Assembly: GCA_021776135.1 (NCBI GenBank)
Contig: JAJFGL010000050.1
Location: 1 to 32,739, forward strand
Length of the DNA: 32,739 nucleotides
DNA from: Kiloniellaceae bacterium
Lineage (GTDB): Bacteria > Pseudomonadota > Alphaproteobacteria > Kiloniellales > J153
Reading direction: 5' to 3'
Shown: piece by piece, positions 14,232 to 21,332 of the stretch
Position numbering within the stretch: the first letter of the stretch is position 1
Layout: every line of letters starts with the position of its first letter
Position numbers and translations under genes: made by a program
The notes under the pieces: generated by a model
What the model was told of the DNA's origin: nothing
The model's input: the letters and a program-made list of their open reading frames with translations, nothing else
Database searches by the model: none

Positions 14232-14969
14232 GTGAATACCATGACCGGAACGACCGGCCAGGCCGGGAAAAAGGGGCGGCTGCTCTATCGTTTGTTGCCC
14301 CTGGCGGTTCTGGGCGCGGGCCTGGTGGCGTTCTTCGCCCTTGACTTGGACCGCTTCGCCGGGCTCGACGCCCTGCGCGAACATCGCGGTTGGCTGACCG
14401 GCCAGGCCGAAAACAACCCTTTGCTCACCGGCCTCGGCTTCATGGCGATCTATGCCCTGGTGGTGGCCTTCTCGATCCCCGGCGGCGCCTTGCTCACCGT
14501 GACCGCTGGATTTCTGTTCGGCACCGTGCCGGCGGCGGTTTGCGTCGTGGCCGGGGCCACCCTCGGGGCGACCGGCTTGTTTTTGGCCGCCCGCACCGCC
14601 CTGGGCGGCGTGCTGCGCGCCAAGGCCGGCCCGGCCCTGCGCCGCATGGAGGAAGGTTTCCGGGAAAACGCCCTGAATTACTTGTTGGTCCTGCGGCTGA
14701 TCCCCTTGTTCCCCTTCTGGCTGGTCAATCTGGTGCCGGCCTTCCTGGGCGTGTCCCTGCGGGTTTATGTAATCGGGACCTTTTTCGGCATTATTCCCGG
14801 CACCTTCGTCTATGCCAGCCTCGGCAATGGGCTGGGGGCGATCCTGGACGCCGGCGACACCCCGGACCTGGGGGTCATTTTCATGCCGGATATTTTGATC
14901 CCGATCGTCGGCCTGGCGGTTTTGGCGCTGCTCCCGGTGGTTTACAAGAAAATCAAGGCGCGCCGCTAA
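14232..14969 (+). CDS. TVP38/TMEM64 family membrane protein (VTT domain)
   Basis: This 245-residue inner-membrane protein has about six hydrophobic segments. It shows the VTT (DedA-related) signature: 'SIPGGALLTVTAGFLFG' followed by the Gly-spaced helix 'GATLGATGLFLAART', then 'LRLIPLFPFWLVNLVPAF' and 'GIIPGTFVYASLGNGL'. The family is linked to lipid scrambling and membrane homeostasis in general, but the bacterial role is not settled. The start may be the GTG at 14232 (with GGGAAGGG just before it) or the ATG at 14241. The stop lies 15 bases before the flavoprotein gene, so the two form an operon; the same pair, sometimes fused, occurs in other bacteria. Confidence 0.87.
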   Translation: MNTMTGTTGQAGKKGRLLYRLLPLAVLGAGLVAFFALDLDRFAGLDALREHRGWLTGQAENNPLLTGLGFMAIYALVVAFSIPGGALLTVTAGFLFGTVPAAVCVVAGATLGATGLFLAARTALGGVLRAKAGPALRRMEEGFRENALNYLLVLRLIPLFPFWLVNLVPAFLGVSLRVYVIGTFFGIIPGTFVYASLGNGLGAILDAGDTPDLGVIFMPDILIPIVGLAVLALLPVVYKKIKARR

Positions 14970-14984
14970 AGCTATGGAGCCGGC

Positions 14985-16409
14985 ATGAGCAATAGTCTAA
15001 CCCCGGACATCTGTGTGATCGGCGCTGGGTCCGCCGGCTTGTCGGTCGCGGCGGGGGCCTCGCAAATGGGGGCCGATACGGTCCTGATCGAAAAGGCCAA
15101 GATGGGCGGCGATTGCCTGAACTATGGCTGCATCCCCTCCAAGGCCCTGCTGGTCGCCGCCAAGGCCGCCGCCGGCCATGACCGGGCCCGGGCCCTGGGG
15201 GTCCATTATGACCCGCCGCGCATCGATTTCAGGGCCGTCCACGACCATGTTCAGAGCGTCATCGCCGCCATCGCCCCCATGGATTCGGTGGAGCGTTTCG
15301 AGGGCCTTGGCGTCACGGTTTTGAAATCCACCGGCCGCTTCGTCAATGACCGCGAGGTGGAGGCGGGGGGGACGCGCATCCGGGCCCGGCGTTTCGTGGT
15401 GGCGACCGGATCCCGGCCCCTGGTGCCGCCCATACCGGGGCTCCAGGATACCGGCTTCCTGACCAACGAAACGGTCTTCGATCTGACCGAACTTCCCGAA
15501 CATCTGATCGTGGTCGGGGGCGGGCCGATCGGCTGCGAACTCGGCCAGGCGTTCCGGCTGCTGGGCGCCCAGGTCAGCATCGTCGAGATGGCCGAAATCA
15601 TGCCCAAGGACGATCCCGAGATGGTCGCGATCCTGCGCGCCAAGCTGCGCGCCGACGGTATTCAGCTCTACGAAAACACCAAGGTCGCCGCGGTCGAACG
15701 CCGGGACGGCGCGGTCGCCGTGAAAATTGAGCGCGAGGGCCGGGAGGACTGGATAACCGGCACGGCCCTGCTTCTGGCCGCCGGGCGGGTGCCTAGTCTT
15801 GAGGGTTTGGGCCTTGAGGCCGCGGGCATTGCCTTCGGCCGTCAGGGGATCGAGGTCGATGGCCGTTTGCGTACCGCCAACCGGCGGGTTTTCGCGGCCG
15901 GCGACGTGGCCGGCGGCCCGCAATTCACCCACATGGCGGGCTATCACGCCGGGATCGTCATCAAGAACGCTTTGTTCCGCTGGCCCGCCAAGGTCGATAT
16001 CCGGGCCCTGCCCTGGGTGACCTACACGGCGCCGGAACTGGCCCAGGTCGGGATGACCGAAGACGCCGCGCGCCGGGCCCATGGCGATATCCGCATCCTG
16101 CGCTGGCCCTTCGCGGAAAACGACCGGGCCCAGGCGGAACGCCAAGACCATGGCATGGTCAAGGCCATCGTGGCGCCGAACGGCAAGATTCTGGGCGCCT
16201 CCATCGCCGGGGAACATGCCGGGGAACTGATCCAGCCCTGGGTTCTGGCCCTATCGCAAGGGGCCAAGGTGTCGGCCCTGGCCGGCATGATCGCGCCCTA
16301 TCCGACCCTGGGCGAGGCCAGTAAGCGCGCCGCGGGCAGCTTCTACGTGCCCAAGCTGTTTAGCGCCCGCACCAAGTGGCTGGTGCGCCTGCTTGCCCGC
16401 TTGGGGTGA
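14985..16409 (+). CDS. FAD-dependent disulfide reductase, MerA/dihydrolipoyl dehydrogenase-like
   Basis: A 474-residue class I pyridine nucleotide-disulfide oxidoreductase. The FAD-binding GAGSAG is at 13-18. The redox-active disulfide is C44/C49 in 'GGDCLNYGCIPSKAL'. The NAD(P) site is 'VVGGGPIGCELG', and the second FAD motif is 'RVFAAGDVAG'. In the dimer-interface region the family's catalytic His of 'HPTxxE' is a Tyr here ('APYPTLGE', Y439/E444), as in mercuric reductases. The MerA C-terminal Cys pair and N-terminal metal-binding domain are both missing, and there is no lipoyl-enzyme context. So it is neither a standard Lpd nor a standard MerA, and the electron acceptor is unknown. It is cotranscribed with the TVP38-family gene. 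Confidence 0.82.
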   Translation: MSNSLTPDICVIGAGSAGLSVAAGASQMGADTVLIEKAKMGGDCLNYGCIPSKALLVAAKAAAGHDRARALGVHYDPPRIDFRAVHDHVQSVIAAIAPMDSVERFEGLGVTVLKSTGRFVNDREVEAGGTRIRARRFVVATGSRPLVPPIPGLQDTGFLTNETVFDLTELPEHLIVVGGGPIGCELGQAFRLLGAQVSIVEMAEIMPKDDPEMVAILRAKLRADGIQLYENTKVAAVERRDGAVAVKIEREGREDWITGTALLLAAGRVPSLEGLGLEAAGIAFGRQGIEVDGRLRTANRRVFAAGDVAGGPQFTHMAGYHAGIVIKNALFRWPAKVDIRALPWVTYTAPELAQVGMTEDAARRAHGDIRILRWPFAENDRAQAERQDHGMVKAIVAPNGKILGASIAGEHAGELIQPWVLALSQGAKVSALAGMIAPYPTLGEASKRAAGSFYVPKLFSARTKWLVRLLARLG

Positions 16410-16441: not shown

Positions 16442-16461
16442 TACGTGATAACTTTCACGTA
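16442..16461. promoter_or_regulatory. Operator-like palindrome upstream of the Cys-repeat gene
   Basis: TACGTGA (16442-16448) and TCACGTA (16455-16461) form a perfect 7-base inverted repeat with a six-base spacer. Further CGTGA half-sites follow at about 16483-16495 (ACGTGAGTCGTGA). This is typical of a dimeric repressor or activator site; the protein that binds is unknown. It lies about 180 bases before the ATG at 16643, with the flavoprotein gene ending at 16409. Confidence 0.45.
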
Positions 16462-16642
16462 CTTGTGAACCAAAACACCCAGACGTGAGTCGTGAATCCC
16501 GAACTTAGCCGCCATTATCCTGGGGCGTGGTTGTCCGGGCCCGCATCTTGCCGCCCATAAACTTGCGGTCATGCCCGTTAACCAAGGCCCGGTACGCGCG
16601 GCCGGCTAGTCCGCCGGTAAGCATCACTTTAGGAGGCGAAAT

Positions 16643-16936
16643 ATGATTAGAAAGACTGTTTTGGCGCTTAGCGTCGCAACCTTGGCCACCGGCGCCGCCA
16701 CCCTTCCGGGTGCGCAAGCGCAGGCGGGAGAGGCCCCGATTCAACTCGCTGCAAGCCACAGTGCTTGCAATCCCTGCAACCCCTGCGCGGCGGCCAAGTG
16801 CAATCCTTGCAACCCCTGCGCGGCGGCCAAGTGCAATCCCTGCAATCCCTGTGCGGCGGCCAAGTGCAATCCCTGCAATCCTTGCGCGGCGGCCAAGTGC
16901 AACCCCTGCAACCCCTGCAAGGCGACGACCAACTAA
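16643..16936 (+). CDS. Small exported Cys-rich repeat protein (CNPCNPCAAAK repeats)
   Basis: I do not recognise a characterised family. The 97 residues start with a signal peptide (MIRKTVLALSVATLATGAA..., likely cut near AQA-Q at about 26-27). After a short linker comes an array of CNPCNPCAAAK units, four complete and a fifth ending after CNPCNPC. There are 15 cysteines between residues 42 and 92, and the tail is KATTN. The DNA repeats as 33 bp units with mostly third-position differences, so selection keeps the protein sequence. A perfect AGGAGG lies seven bases before the ATG, indicating high translation. It is monocistronic: an upstream region of 230 bases with a palindrome, and a hairpin terminator after it. 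Metal or thiol buffering in the periplasm is the natural guess, but there is no direct evidence. Confidence 0.85.
   Translation: MIRKTVLALSVATLATGAATLPGAQAQAGEAPIQLAASHSACNPCNPCAAAKCNPCNPCAAAKCNPCNPCAAAKCNPCNPCAAAKCNPCNPCKATTN
16766..16918 (+). repeat. Tandem 33 bp coding repeat, about 4.6 units
   Basis: Four 33 bp units (16766-16897) plus a 21 bp partial unit encode CNPCNPCAAAK. Units differ only by silent C/T changes. Slippage between units could change copy number between strains. Confidence 0.9.
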
Positions 16937-16972: not shown

Positions 16973-17027
16973 GGCGCGTCCGCTACCGTCCGAACCCTCC
17001 CTCTCCCTTGGTCGGTAGCGGCGCGCC
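16973..17027 (+). terminator. Hairpin terminator after the Cys-repeat gene
   Basis: GGCGCGTCCGCTACCG (16973-16988) pairs with CGGTAGCGGCGCGCC (17013-17027), a 15-bp stem with one bulge. The following bases (ACTTCTTTCATTT) are T-rich but not a clean run. It separates the Cys-repeat gene from the histidine kinase. Confidence 0.6.
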
Positions 17028-17081: not shown

Positions 17082-18479
17082 ATGACGGCGACCTCATCGA
17101 GACTCCCGCCCCTGGTCAAGAGCCTGTCGGCCAAGCTTTTGCTGCTGACGATCTTTTTCGTGATGCTGGCGGAAGTGCTGATATTCGCGCCTTCCGTCGG
17201 CCGGTTCCGCCTGTCTTACCTGCAAGACCGGCTGGGCGATGCGCACCTGGCTATTCTCGCGCTCGAGGCGACCCCCGATAACATGATCAGCGCGGAGTTG
17301 GAACGCGAGCTGCTGTCCCACGTCGGCGCCTCCATGGTCGCCCTGACCAAGCCGGACGCGGGCAAGTTGATTCTCATGACCGCCAAGCCCGAGCGCCTGG
17401 ACGCCAGTTTCGATTTACGCGAGATGAACTTCTTCGCCCTGATCGGCAGCGCCGCGCGAACCATGCTCGGCGACGGCACCCGTATCCTGAGGGTGGTCGG
17501 GCCCTCGCCCAGCGATCCCGATATACTGGTCGAGATCGTGCTCGGCGAAACCGAACTCCGGGCCCTGTTGATCGGTTACGGGAACCGTATCTTGGCCCTT
17601 TCTTTCGGCATTTCGCTGTTCACGGCGGCGCTGGTGTTTCTCAGCCTGCATCTGCTCATGGTCCGGCCCATGCGCCGCTTGACGGAAAACATGGCGCGCT
17701 TTCGCGAGAATCCCGAGGACGGCTCGCGCATCGCGCAACCGACCGCGCGTCAAGACGAGATCGGCATCGCCCGGCGCGAGCTGGCCAGCATGCAGCAGGG
17801 CTTGCGCGATGCCCTCCAGCAACGCGCACACCTGGCGGCGCTGGGAACCGCCGTCACCAAGATCAATCACGACTTGAGAAACATACTGTCCACGGCGCGC
17901 CTGATCTCCGACCGCTTGGCGGCGAGCGGCGATCCCGAGGTGCAGCGCATCGCGCCGACCCTGGTCAACGCCATCGACAGGGCCGTCAATCTGTGCGCGC
18001 AAACCCTCGATTTCACCCGCCAGGGCGCCCCAAGAATAAAGCCGCGCCGTTTCGATCTGGCCGGCTTGATCGCCGAGGTCGGCAGGGACCTGCCGGCGCC
18101 GGTCAACGGCGCGCCCGTGCTTCGCTGCGCGATCGACGGCAGCTTCGAGCTTGAGGCCGACCACGAGCAACTGCACCGGGTCTTGAGCAACCTAAGCCTG
18201 AATTCGATTAACGCCGGCGCGGCTCATGTCGAGGTCAGCGCGGAACGCGGCGAAGATCTCATCGCGGTCTATGTCACCGACGACGGCCCCGGCCTGCCGC
18301 CAAGGGCGCGCGAGAACCTCTTCGTGCCCTTCGCCGCTTCGGCTCAAGCCGGGGGCACCGGGTTGGGCCTGGCGATCGCCCGCGAACTGATGCGGGCCCA
18401 TGGCGGCGATCTGGTCTTGGAATCCTCGACCGCCAAGGGAACCCGCTTCAAGCTCAGCCTGCCTTTGGGTAGCGCTTAG
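17082..18479 (+). CDS. Membrane sensor histidine kinase (orphan)
   Basis: A 465-residue two-component sensor kinase. One transmembrane helix lies at about 17-40 and another at about 165-190, enclosing a periplasmic sensor region of about 125 residues without recognisable domain. A HAMP segment follows (about 190-245). The dimerisation/phosphoacceptor helix has H263 in 'KINHDLRNILS'. The ATPase domain shows N box 'LSNLSLNSINAG', G1 'DDGPGLPP' and G2 'GGTGLGLAIARELMRAHGG'. It would autophosphorylate H263 and pass phosphate to a response regulator, but none is encoded next to it. It follows the Cys-repeat gene by 145 bases across a terminator. Its stop overlaps that of the converging GNAT-like gene by four bases. 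Confidence 0.92.
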   Translation: MTATSSRLPPLVKSLSAKLLLLTIFFVMLAEVLIFAPSVGRFRLSYLQDRLGDAHLAILALEATPDNMISAELERELLSHVGASMVALTKPDAGKLILMTAKPERLDASFDLREMNFFALIGSAARTMLGDGTRILRVVGPSPSDPDILVEIVLGETELRALLIGYGNRILALSFGISLFTAALVFLSLHLLMVRPMRRLTENMARFRENPEDGSRIAQPTARQDEIGIARRELASMQQGLRDALQQRAHLAALGTAVTKINHDLRNILSTARLISDRLAASGDPEVQRIAPTLVNAIDRAVNLCAQTLDFTRQGAPRIKPRRFDLAGLIAEVGRDLPAPVNGAPVLRCAIDGSFELEADHEQLHRVLSNLSLNSINAGAAHVEVSAERGEDLIAVYVTDDGPGLPPRARENLFVPFAASAQAGGTGLGLAIARELMRAHGGDLVLESSTAKGTRFKLSLPLGSA

Positions 18480-21285: not shown

Positions 21286-21300
21286 GGGCGGGCTCCAGGG

Positions 21301-21332
21301 GTTGCGCGTTGCGGTGGTTGCGCGTTGCGGTG
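21301..21332. repeat. Perfect tandem repeat, 2 x 16 bp
   Basis: GTTGCGCGTTGCGGTG occurs twice in direct succession, 15 bases upstream of the gpt start codon. Each unit itself contains two GTTGCG-type half units. Confidence 0.85.

Follow-up and report, generated by a model that had tools for sequence, protein, structure and literature searches.

The window, a stretch of 32,739 nucleotides from a Kiloniellaceae bacterium, encodes a cysteine-rich peptide that we read as an exported thiolate array, which would serve as a soft-metal buffer in a co-regulated periplasmic system together with cytochrome P460 proteins, a protein resembling formylglycine-generating enzyme (FGE) and a DUF6969 protein. 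We put the probability of this reading at about 0.45, a little below even odds. The peptide has an export-type sequence and a regular cysteine array, it belongs to a family of array proteins that co-occur with the FGE-like protein and DUF6969 across genomes, and a common palindrome is found upstream of array genes. The gene and its reading signals are as follows.

16643-16936, forward strand: gene of the exported-type CNPC-repeat peptide, an open reading frame (ORF) of 97 amino acids with 15 Cys, aligned with its relatives
16631-16636, forward strand: ribosome binding site AGGAGG, 6 bases 5' of the ATG
16643-16723, forward strand: Sec-type signal peptide region, recognised by eye (basic start, hydrophobic stretch, AQAQA) and kept in relatives
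16766-16918, forward strand: 33-bp tandem array, 4.6 copies of CNPCNPCAAAK (Tandem Repeats Finder, codon comparison)
16973-17027, forward strand: stable hairpin 3' of the gene, a possible terminator without a T run (fold compared with shuffles)

A preliminary description of this DNA had proposed a 15-Cys peptide built of CNPCNPCAAAK repeats that differ only silently between DNA units, with a signal peptide and a perfect AGGAGG site, and all of these features were recovered. Tandem Repeats Finder reported the array with a period of 33, 4.6 copies, 92% matches, no indels and a score of 264. Five of the 11 codon columns varied between the units and 100% of the changes were silent, which indicates that the repeat is either selected at the protein level or has been homogenised. 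The signal-like start is followed by five CNPCNPC clusters linked by AAAK, so that the mature part, with the signal region placed by eye, comprises about 70 residues with five CxxCxxC clusters. The signal-like start and the array were retained in 12 aligned relatives with 62-86% identity to the window peptide, indicating that the gene is conserved. The proposed terminator was borne out in part: the hairpin was stable (z -2.96, with equal stability in 2 of 200 shuffles), but a consensus scan around the gene found no T-tailed terminator. A scan for sigma-70 promoters around the gene gave no match. The peptide matched no family in Pfam (E 0.001), NCBIfam (E 1) or PHROGs, in agreement with the earlier statement that no characterised family was known.

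Relatives were collected by a scan of genome contigs (best 80 of 172 confirmed, forming 78 loci), which together with the window and a second locus of the same genome (L007) gave 80 loci. The L007 paralogue, 428 aa long, begins with a signal-like segment, contains 33 CNPC motifs and bears a Cytochrome_P460 domain with CxxCH at its C-terminal end; directly 5' of its gene lies a second Cytochrome_P460 gene, which encodes 214 aa (L007:6336-6977). This P460 pair adjoins a divergent Rrf2 regulator and SufB. The window peptide resembles the cytochrome P460 family (PF16694) in that its sister proteins bear the domain and CxxCH behind the array; it differs in consisting of the array alone, without the PF16694 domain or the haem motif. 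The 80 loci (best 80 of 172) contained 56 array-P460 proteins, 38 stand-alone arrays, two of which (L043, L044) extend past a contig end and could be truncated fusions, one open-ended array (L061), and seven proteins with a cytochrome c between arrays. PF16694 was tested for L007 and L049, and the 56 tails align. Stand-alone peptide and array-P460 gene occurred together in 19 of these loci (best 80 of 172). In L074, from the cultured Denitrobaculum tricleocarpae R148, array, array-P460 and DUF6969 genes sit inside a stretch of about 5 kb. All seven array-flanked cytochrome c proteins came from gammaproteobacterial or Granulosicoccaceae records (best 80 of 172), those of L021, L027 and L071 being gammaproteobacterial, and a SoxA/TsdA domain was assigned by Pfam in the one tested (L021).

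Peptide homologues other than those next to the kinase described below had 63-70% identity and were located in loci with FGE, P460 or DUF6969 genes: FGE, P460 fusion and DUF6969 in L036, FGE and P460 fusion in L046, FGE and DUF6969 in L069, and DUF6969 and P460 fusion in L049. The genomic surroundings of the homologues were non-random, the opposite of what the preliminary description had named as counting against its proposal. The genome of the window has the peptide, the P460 pair and an FGE/DUF6969 pair spread over three contigs. A mobile or viral origin was not supported: there was no plasmid match at E 1e-5, and 46 pattern stretches gave a single weak match in IMG/VR; this match was to an IMG/VR contig (L086; 52%, query residues 45-92). 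CNPC matches with one internal stop in five genomes (G066, G236, G250, G254, G260) are decayed copies or alignments that overrun the end.

Locus genes were called with a custom ORF script, with rough starts, and neighbour families were BLAST clusters with one Pfam-tested representative each. DUF6969 (PF22308) was present in 41 and an FGE-sulfatase (PF03781) protein in 26 of the 80 array loci, and 37 of the 80 had neither gene in the fetched flanks (best 80 of 172). Where both genes occurred in one locus (24 loci, best 80 of 172), they overlapped by 4 bp in 7 cases. In the genome of the window they are adjacent on a separate contig, and the second DUF6969 gene stands alone.

In 24 FGE-like sequences, among them the copy of the window's own genome, the motif GGSWDDxGCGxCR is invariant, and the proteins have a signal-like stretch. 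They scored 118.9 bits (L069) and 140.2 bits (own-genome copy) against PF03781, for which the cut-off is 23.3, and the structural model (pLDDT 83) was closest to ToxD (E 8e-20), CalU17 and FGE (6s07, E 7.5e-15). The partner thus belongs with the FGE family by profile and model, and is set apart from it by the invariant CGxC and by N-terminal motifs of its own. In canonical FGE the copper-binding Cys pair sits in the loop after GGS, so that by analogy the CGxC of the FGE-like protein may represent an altered site for metal binding or redox chemistry. DUF6969 shows no signal by eye, and a set of its His, Asp and Glu residues is invariant in 28 sequences (H66, D71, D74, H84, H86, E95, H98 and H100 in A2). 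Its model (pLDDT 92) gave no clear PDB match (best E 0.09 by Foldseek; best Z 3.7 by VIA-align, rmsd 4.0 over 48 residues), which establishes neither that the fold is new nor that it is known. A supposed cupredoxin-like neighbour was dropped for lack of a Pfam match.

Across 289 genomes of the class, CNPC arrays were found in 31, DUF6969 in 70, MNIO in 120, and the CGxC FGE type (scores above 330 bits, the best of the remainder being 122) in 23, a number that may include misses as mostly only eight first-look candidates per genome were scored. DUF6969 was present in 27 of the 31 CNPC genomes vs 43 of the 258 without CNPC (p 4e-15), and the FGE type in 18/31 vs 5/258 (p 3e-16), whereas MNIO, used as negative control, was distributed evenly (13/31 vs 107/258, p 0.55); since the genomes are related, these Fisher values overstate independence. 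A link between DUF6969 and MNIO (35/70 vs 85/219, p 0.07) was not counted. At the level of families, CNPC was accompanied by DUF6969 in 18 of 21 and by the FGE type in 14 of 21, the family total (143) being taken from the numbering of family labels. The CNPC matches include weak ones (such as G006 and G036), and leaving out five weak matches DUF6969 was present in 24 of 26 genomes. Among 38 closer relatives, DUF6969 was found in 21/21 CNPC genomes vs 7/17 without CNPC, and the FGE type in 18/21 vs 3/17. The exceptions in the class were 13 of the 31 CNPC genomes without the FGE type and 4 without DUF6969, and conversely 5 of the 23 FGE-type genomes and 43 DUF6969 genomes without a CNPC match.

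Twenty DUF6969 regions (139 kb, one cut to 3.7 kb) were chosen from these 43 CNPC-less genomes, four of them for the FGE type. ORFs with at least two NPC motifs, such as NPCAAK repeats alone or with P460, were found in 10 of the 20 regions and were absent from the other 10, vs none in 15 control regions with a smaller total of 62 kb. One DUF6969 region also contains an ORF of Cys- and Gly-rich repeats (CGGSHAGDCGG) that opens with a signal-like segment (L093:4187-4573), possibly another type of substrate.

Alignment of eight genomes revealed a conserved island 5' of the peptide gene.

16454-16469, forward strand: palindrome TTCACGTACTTGTGAA, putative operator common to array genes (upstream alignment, motif counts)

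The palindrome is perfect in the window and lies about 173 bp ahead of the peptide ATG. Sites with one mismatch precede the lone P460 gene (L007 6220) and the CNPC-P460 gene (L007 6987) of the same genome, and another lies 184 bp ahead of the second DUF6969 gene (L091 6510). Altogether 12 sites were counted in 716 kb of this genome, a non-random sample since it includes the system loci; seven were inside long ORFs, and those outside were the window site, the three just named and a core site in L157.

With up to one mismatch, TTCAC-N6-GTGAA was found ahead of 32 of 85 array genes vs 23 of 634 others (best 80 of 172; both sets leave out the window, L008 and L009). The enrichment was observed at a spacer of 6 only, and this motif surpassed all 29 other half-site permutations, the next best of which preceded 5 of the 85 array genes. 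The exact core TCAC-N6-GTGA preceded 36/85 array genes vs 19/634 others (best 80 of 172), and 7 of these 19 share the site with a system gene; more than half of the array genes are without the core. When the eight aligned loci and L007 were omitted, the counts were 34/79 vs 16/566 (p 8e-23; best 80 of 172). The exact core was also present ahead of 9 of 26 FGE genes, a count that stayed the same with those loci omitted, 2 of 41 DUF6969 genes and none of the 6 gammaproteobacterial fusions scored (best 80 of 172). In 25 of 52 sites, TTGA stood at a distance of exactly 5 bp on the downstream side; it is also present behind the site of the own-genome CNPC-P460 gene and is missing at this distance from the site of the window. 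Since the exact core had been adjusted on the initial 80 loci, the 20 DUF6969 regions outside that set (L092-L111, 139 kb) provide an independent test: they contained seven core sites, six of which were directly ahead of array genes (12 present). The core was also seen ahead of a VTT gene (L012, L013, L059), a Sel1-repeat gene (L025, L030) and a gene for a small exported-type protein without a Pfam match (L041, L046, L079), all possible members of the regulon.

A near-identical inverted repeat is known from the CenK-CenR regulon. According to parts of PMC9561847, CenR of S. meliloti has a binding site, AGTCAC-N6-GTGACT, immediately ahead of the -35 box of srlA, which encodes a thioredoxin-fold protein for peroxide tolerance, and a related promoter has ATTCACGACGTTGTGAAT. 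CenR sites of R. sphaeroides, such as TGACGCAGCTGTGAA, precede exported or envelope genes, dsbC among them, as described in parts of PMC9275681. The array genes resemble these regulons in the inverted repeat, in S. meliloti placed upstream of -35, and in having exported or envelope products among the targets (PMC9561847, PMC9275681, in the parts available), but the R. sphaeroides site is given there as a direct repeat, TGA-N8-TGA. The wordings of the palindrome motif were not found in a Brucella CenR paper. By this analogy the regulator of the array genes is plausibly of CenR type.

The preliminary description had placed the peptide in a possible sensing and buffering unit with its immediate neighbours.

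14232-14969, forward strand: VTT-domain membrane protein (Pfam), context, not obligate
14985-16409, forward strand: flavoprotein of the pyridine nucleotide-disulphide oxidoreductase family (Pfam, NCBIfam), context, not obligate
17082-18479, forward strand: sensor histidine kinase of 465 aa (Pfam), no response regulator seen alongside, context

The flavoprotein had been called MerA-like; it scored 374 bits against the NCBIfam MerA model, below the cut-off of 454, so that the term holds as a family resemblance only. The row was compared in the 38 closer relatives, 21 of which had a CNPC match. The peptide was immediately 5' of the kinase in 19 of these 21; in the other two, the kinase begins at a contig end (G298) or has no peptide ahead of it (G283). 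The kinase was present in 35 of the 38 relatives, and the row of VTT protein, flavoprotein and kinase is, judging by this distribution, old. Flavoprotein and kinase were adjacent without any CNPC match in 14 of the 38, separated by at most 76 bp in 12 and by about 0.7-0.8 kb in two. Because the row is kept without the peptide in these 14, the peptide gene either joined a row that was already there or disappeared from it. The surroundings are non-random and not obligate, and the constant co-occurrence with flavoprotein or kinase that would have spoken for such a unit did not hold; the recurrent partners are CNPC-P460 cytochromes, the FGE-like protein and DUF6969. An obligate operon as the main unit was rejected on account of the 14 relatives without the peptide. 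A single operon for metal sensing and buffering, made up of the genes for peptide, flavoprotein, VTT protein and kinase, we regard as very improbable: the position ahead of the kinase in 19/21 peptide-bearing relatives and the core ahead of some VTT genes speak for it, but these 14 keep flavoprotein and kinase without the peptide, and the remaining homologues are found in FGE/P460/DUF6969 loci. The two genomes with the wider gap (L131, L132; G297, G307) possess DUF6969 and the FGE type, and a search of this gap in the two f144 genomes for a Cys-rich ORF, as a remnant of the peptide, found none. In another relative (L149; G314) the peptide occupies the same position ahead of the kinase with altered repeats, CDPCAPCDPCAPC, in which the PC rhythm is kept and Asn is not.

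The thiolate-array reading assigns the peptide, exported with its roughly 70 mature residues and five CxxCxxC clusters, to a co-regulated periplasmic system as one of its products. The other parts in the same genome would be the CNPC array-P460 fusion, the second P460 cytochrome, the exported-type FGE-like protein and DUF6969, in which no signal is seen by eye. An activator bound at TCAC-N6-GTGA upstream of a -35 box probably drives transcription, plausibly CenR, an alphaproteobacterial envelope response regulator. Each cluster would most likely bind soft metal through its thiolates, Cu(I) in the first place, the arrays would buffer metal, and thiol oxidation, around the cytochromes, and the FGE-like protein and DUF6969 would load, mature or protect the cysteines. 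This role as a thiolate buffer for soft metal, with Cu(I) in the first place, is suggested by the CxxCxxC clusters, the export, the ties to haem proteins and to a cuproenzyme family, and the parallel with bufferins. FGEs are described as cuproenzymes, and Buf1-Cytochrom_C-FGE-sulfatase fusions among the copper-chelating bufferins, in parts of PMC12452194. The chemistry suggested in the preliminary description, metal binding or thiol buffering in the periplasm, is plausible.

The same partners could be accommodated by a modified precursor, whose cysteines the exported FGE-like enzyme, with DUF6969, would alter, for example to formylglycine or a different oxidised product, so that the modified array is the active form, parallel to the thiooxazoles of bufferins but without MNIO. 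The target motif of FGE is CxPxR, and the repeat holds its core C-x-P but no Arg at +4 (CNPCN, CNPCA) and hence not the full motif. The association of the FGE type with the arrays (18/31 vs 5/258), the resemblance of the model to ToxD, CalU17 and FGE, the invariant CGxC directly after GGSWDD and the published bufferin fusions with FGE-sulfatase (in parts of PMC12452194) argue for such a modification; divergent NPCAAK arrays, however, are largely without C-x-P, 13 of the 31 CNPC genomes lack this FGE type, and DUF6969 has no clear PDB match to suggest a chemistry. On balance we consider it doubtful.

The CxPC spacing also fits a dithiol redox buffer, in which the array, induced by envelope stress, would absorb oxidants or be a periplasmic disulphide reservoir; CNPC is a C-x-P-C dithiol, like the CGPC of thioredoxin. 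The CenR-like palindrome is consistent with this, CenR controlling srlA in S. meliloti and having dsbC in its R. sphaeroides regulon (parts of PMC9561847 and PMC9275681). Pfam on selected cluster representatives recognised no fixed thioredoxin-fold or exported reductase neighbour, however, and the flavoprotein neighbour occurs without the peptide; we regard this explanation as unlikely. A broader proposal, possible although we would not lean towards it, is an unrecognised class of periplasmic Cys arrays with its own non-MNIO pair, in which a CGxC FGE-like oxidase outside and DUF6969 inside would convert or metal-load CNPC/NPC repeats; the arrays, which would work both alone and as tails of P460 and further c-type cytochromes, would be controlled by an envelope regulator of CenR type.

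Dense CxxC thiolates are characteristic of metallothioneins and cysteine-rich storage proteins. The peptide shares them with these proteins, and differs in having no Pfam or NCBIfam match, an export-type start and a strict periodicity. Bufferins, MNIO-modified and Sec-exported copper-chelating RiPPs, are likewise Sec-type, Cys-rich products with dedicated partner genes, and have published fusions to cytochrome c and FGE-sulfatase (parts of PMC12452194). A Sec signal and a Cys-rich core, as in bufferins, were recognised by eye in the sequence and conservation of the peptide, but the partners of the CNPC arrays are DUF6969 and the FGE-like protein, not MNIO. The lack of a Pfam match means that the peptide has no DUF2282 match. 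Membership of the bufferins was rejected, as MNIO (PF05114) had no match in the own genome and CNPC was not associated with MNIO.

No publication on CNPCNPC/NPCAAK arrays or DUF6969, or on cytochrome P460 with formylglycine-generating enzyme or a cysteine-rich repeat, was found in the open-licence PMC literature, and the set of repeat peptides, unusual cytochromes, FGE relative and DUF6969 appears undescribed in the literature searched. Judging from the sequences, its probable role is the buffering of metal or thiols on the outer side of the inner membrane. DUF6969, an unusual FGE branch, P460 cytochromes and Cys-array peptides are thereby joined in one testable system with a common operator, so that functional work on one could give function to all parts, and the system would represent a copper- or thiol-buffering peptide route without MNIO enzymes. 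Elsewhere in the window, a short tandem repeat of 16 bp in 2.1 copies was observed at 21300-21332.
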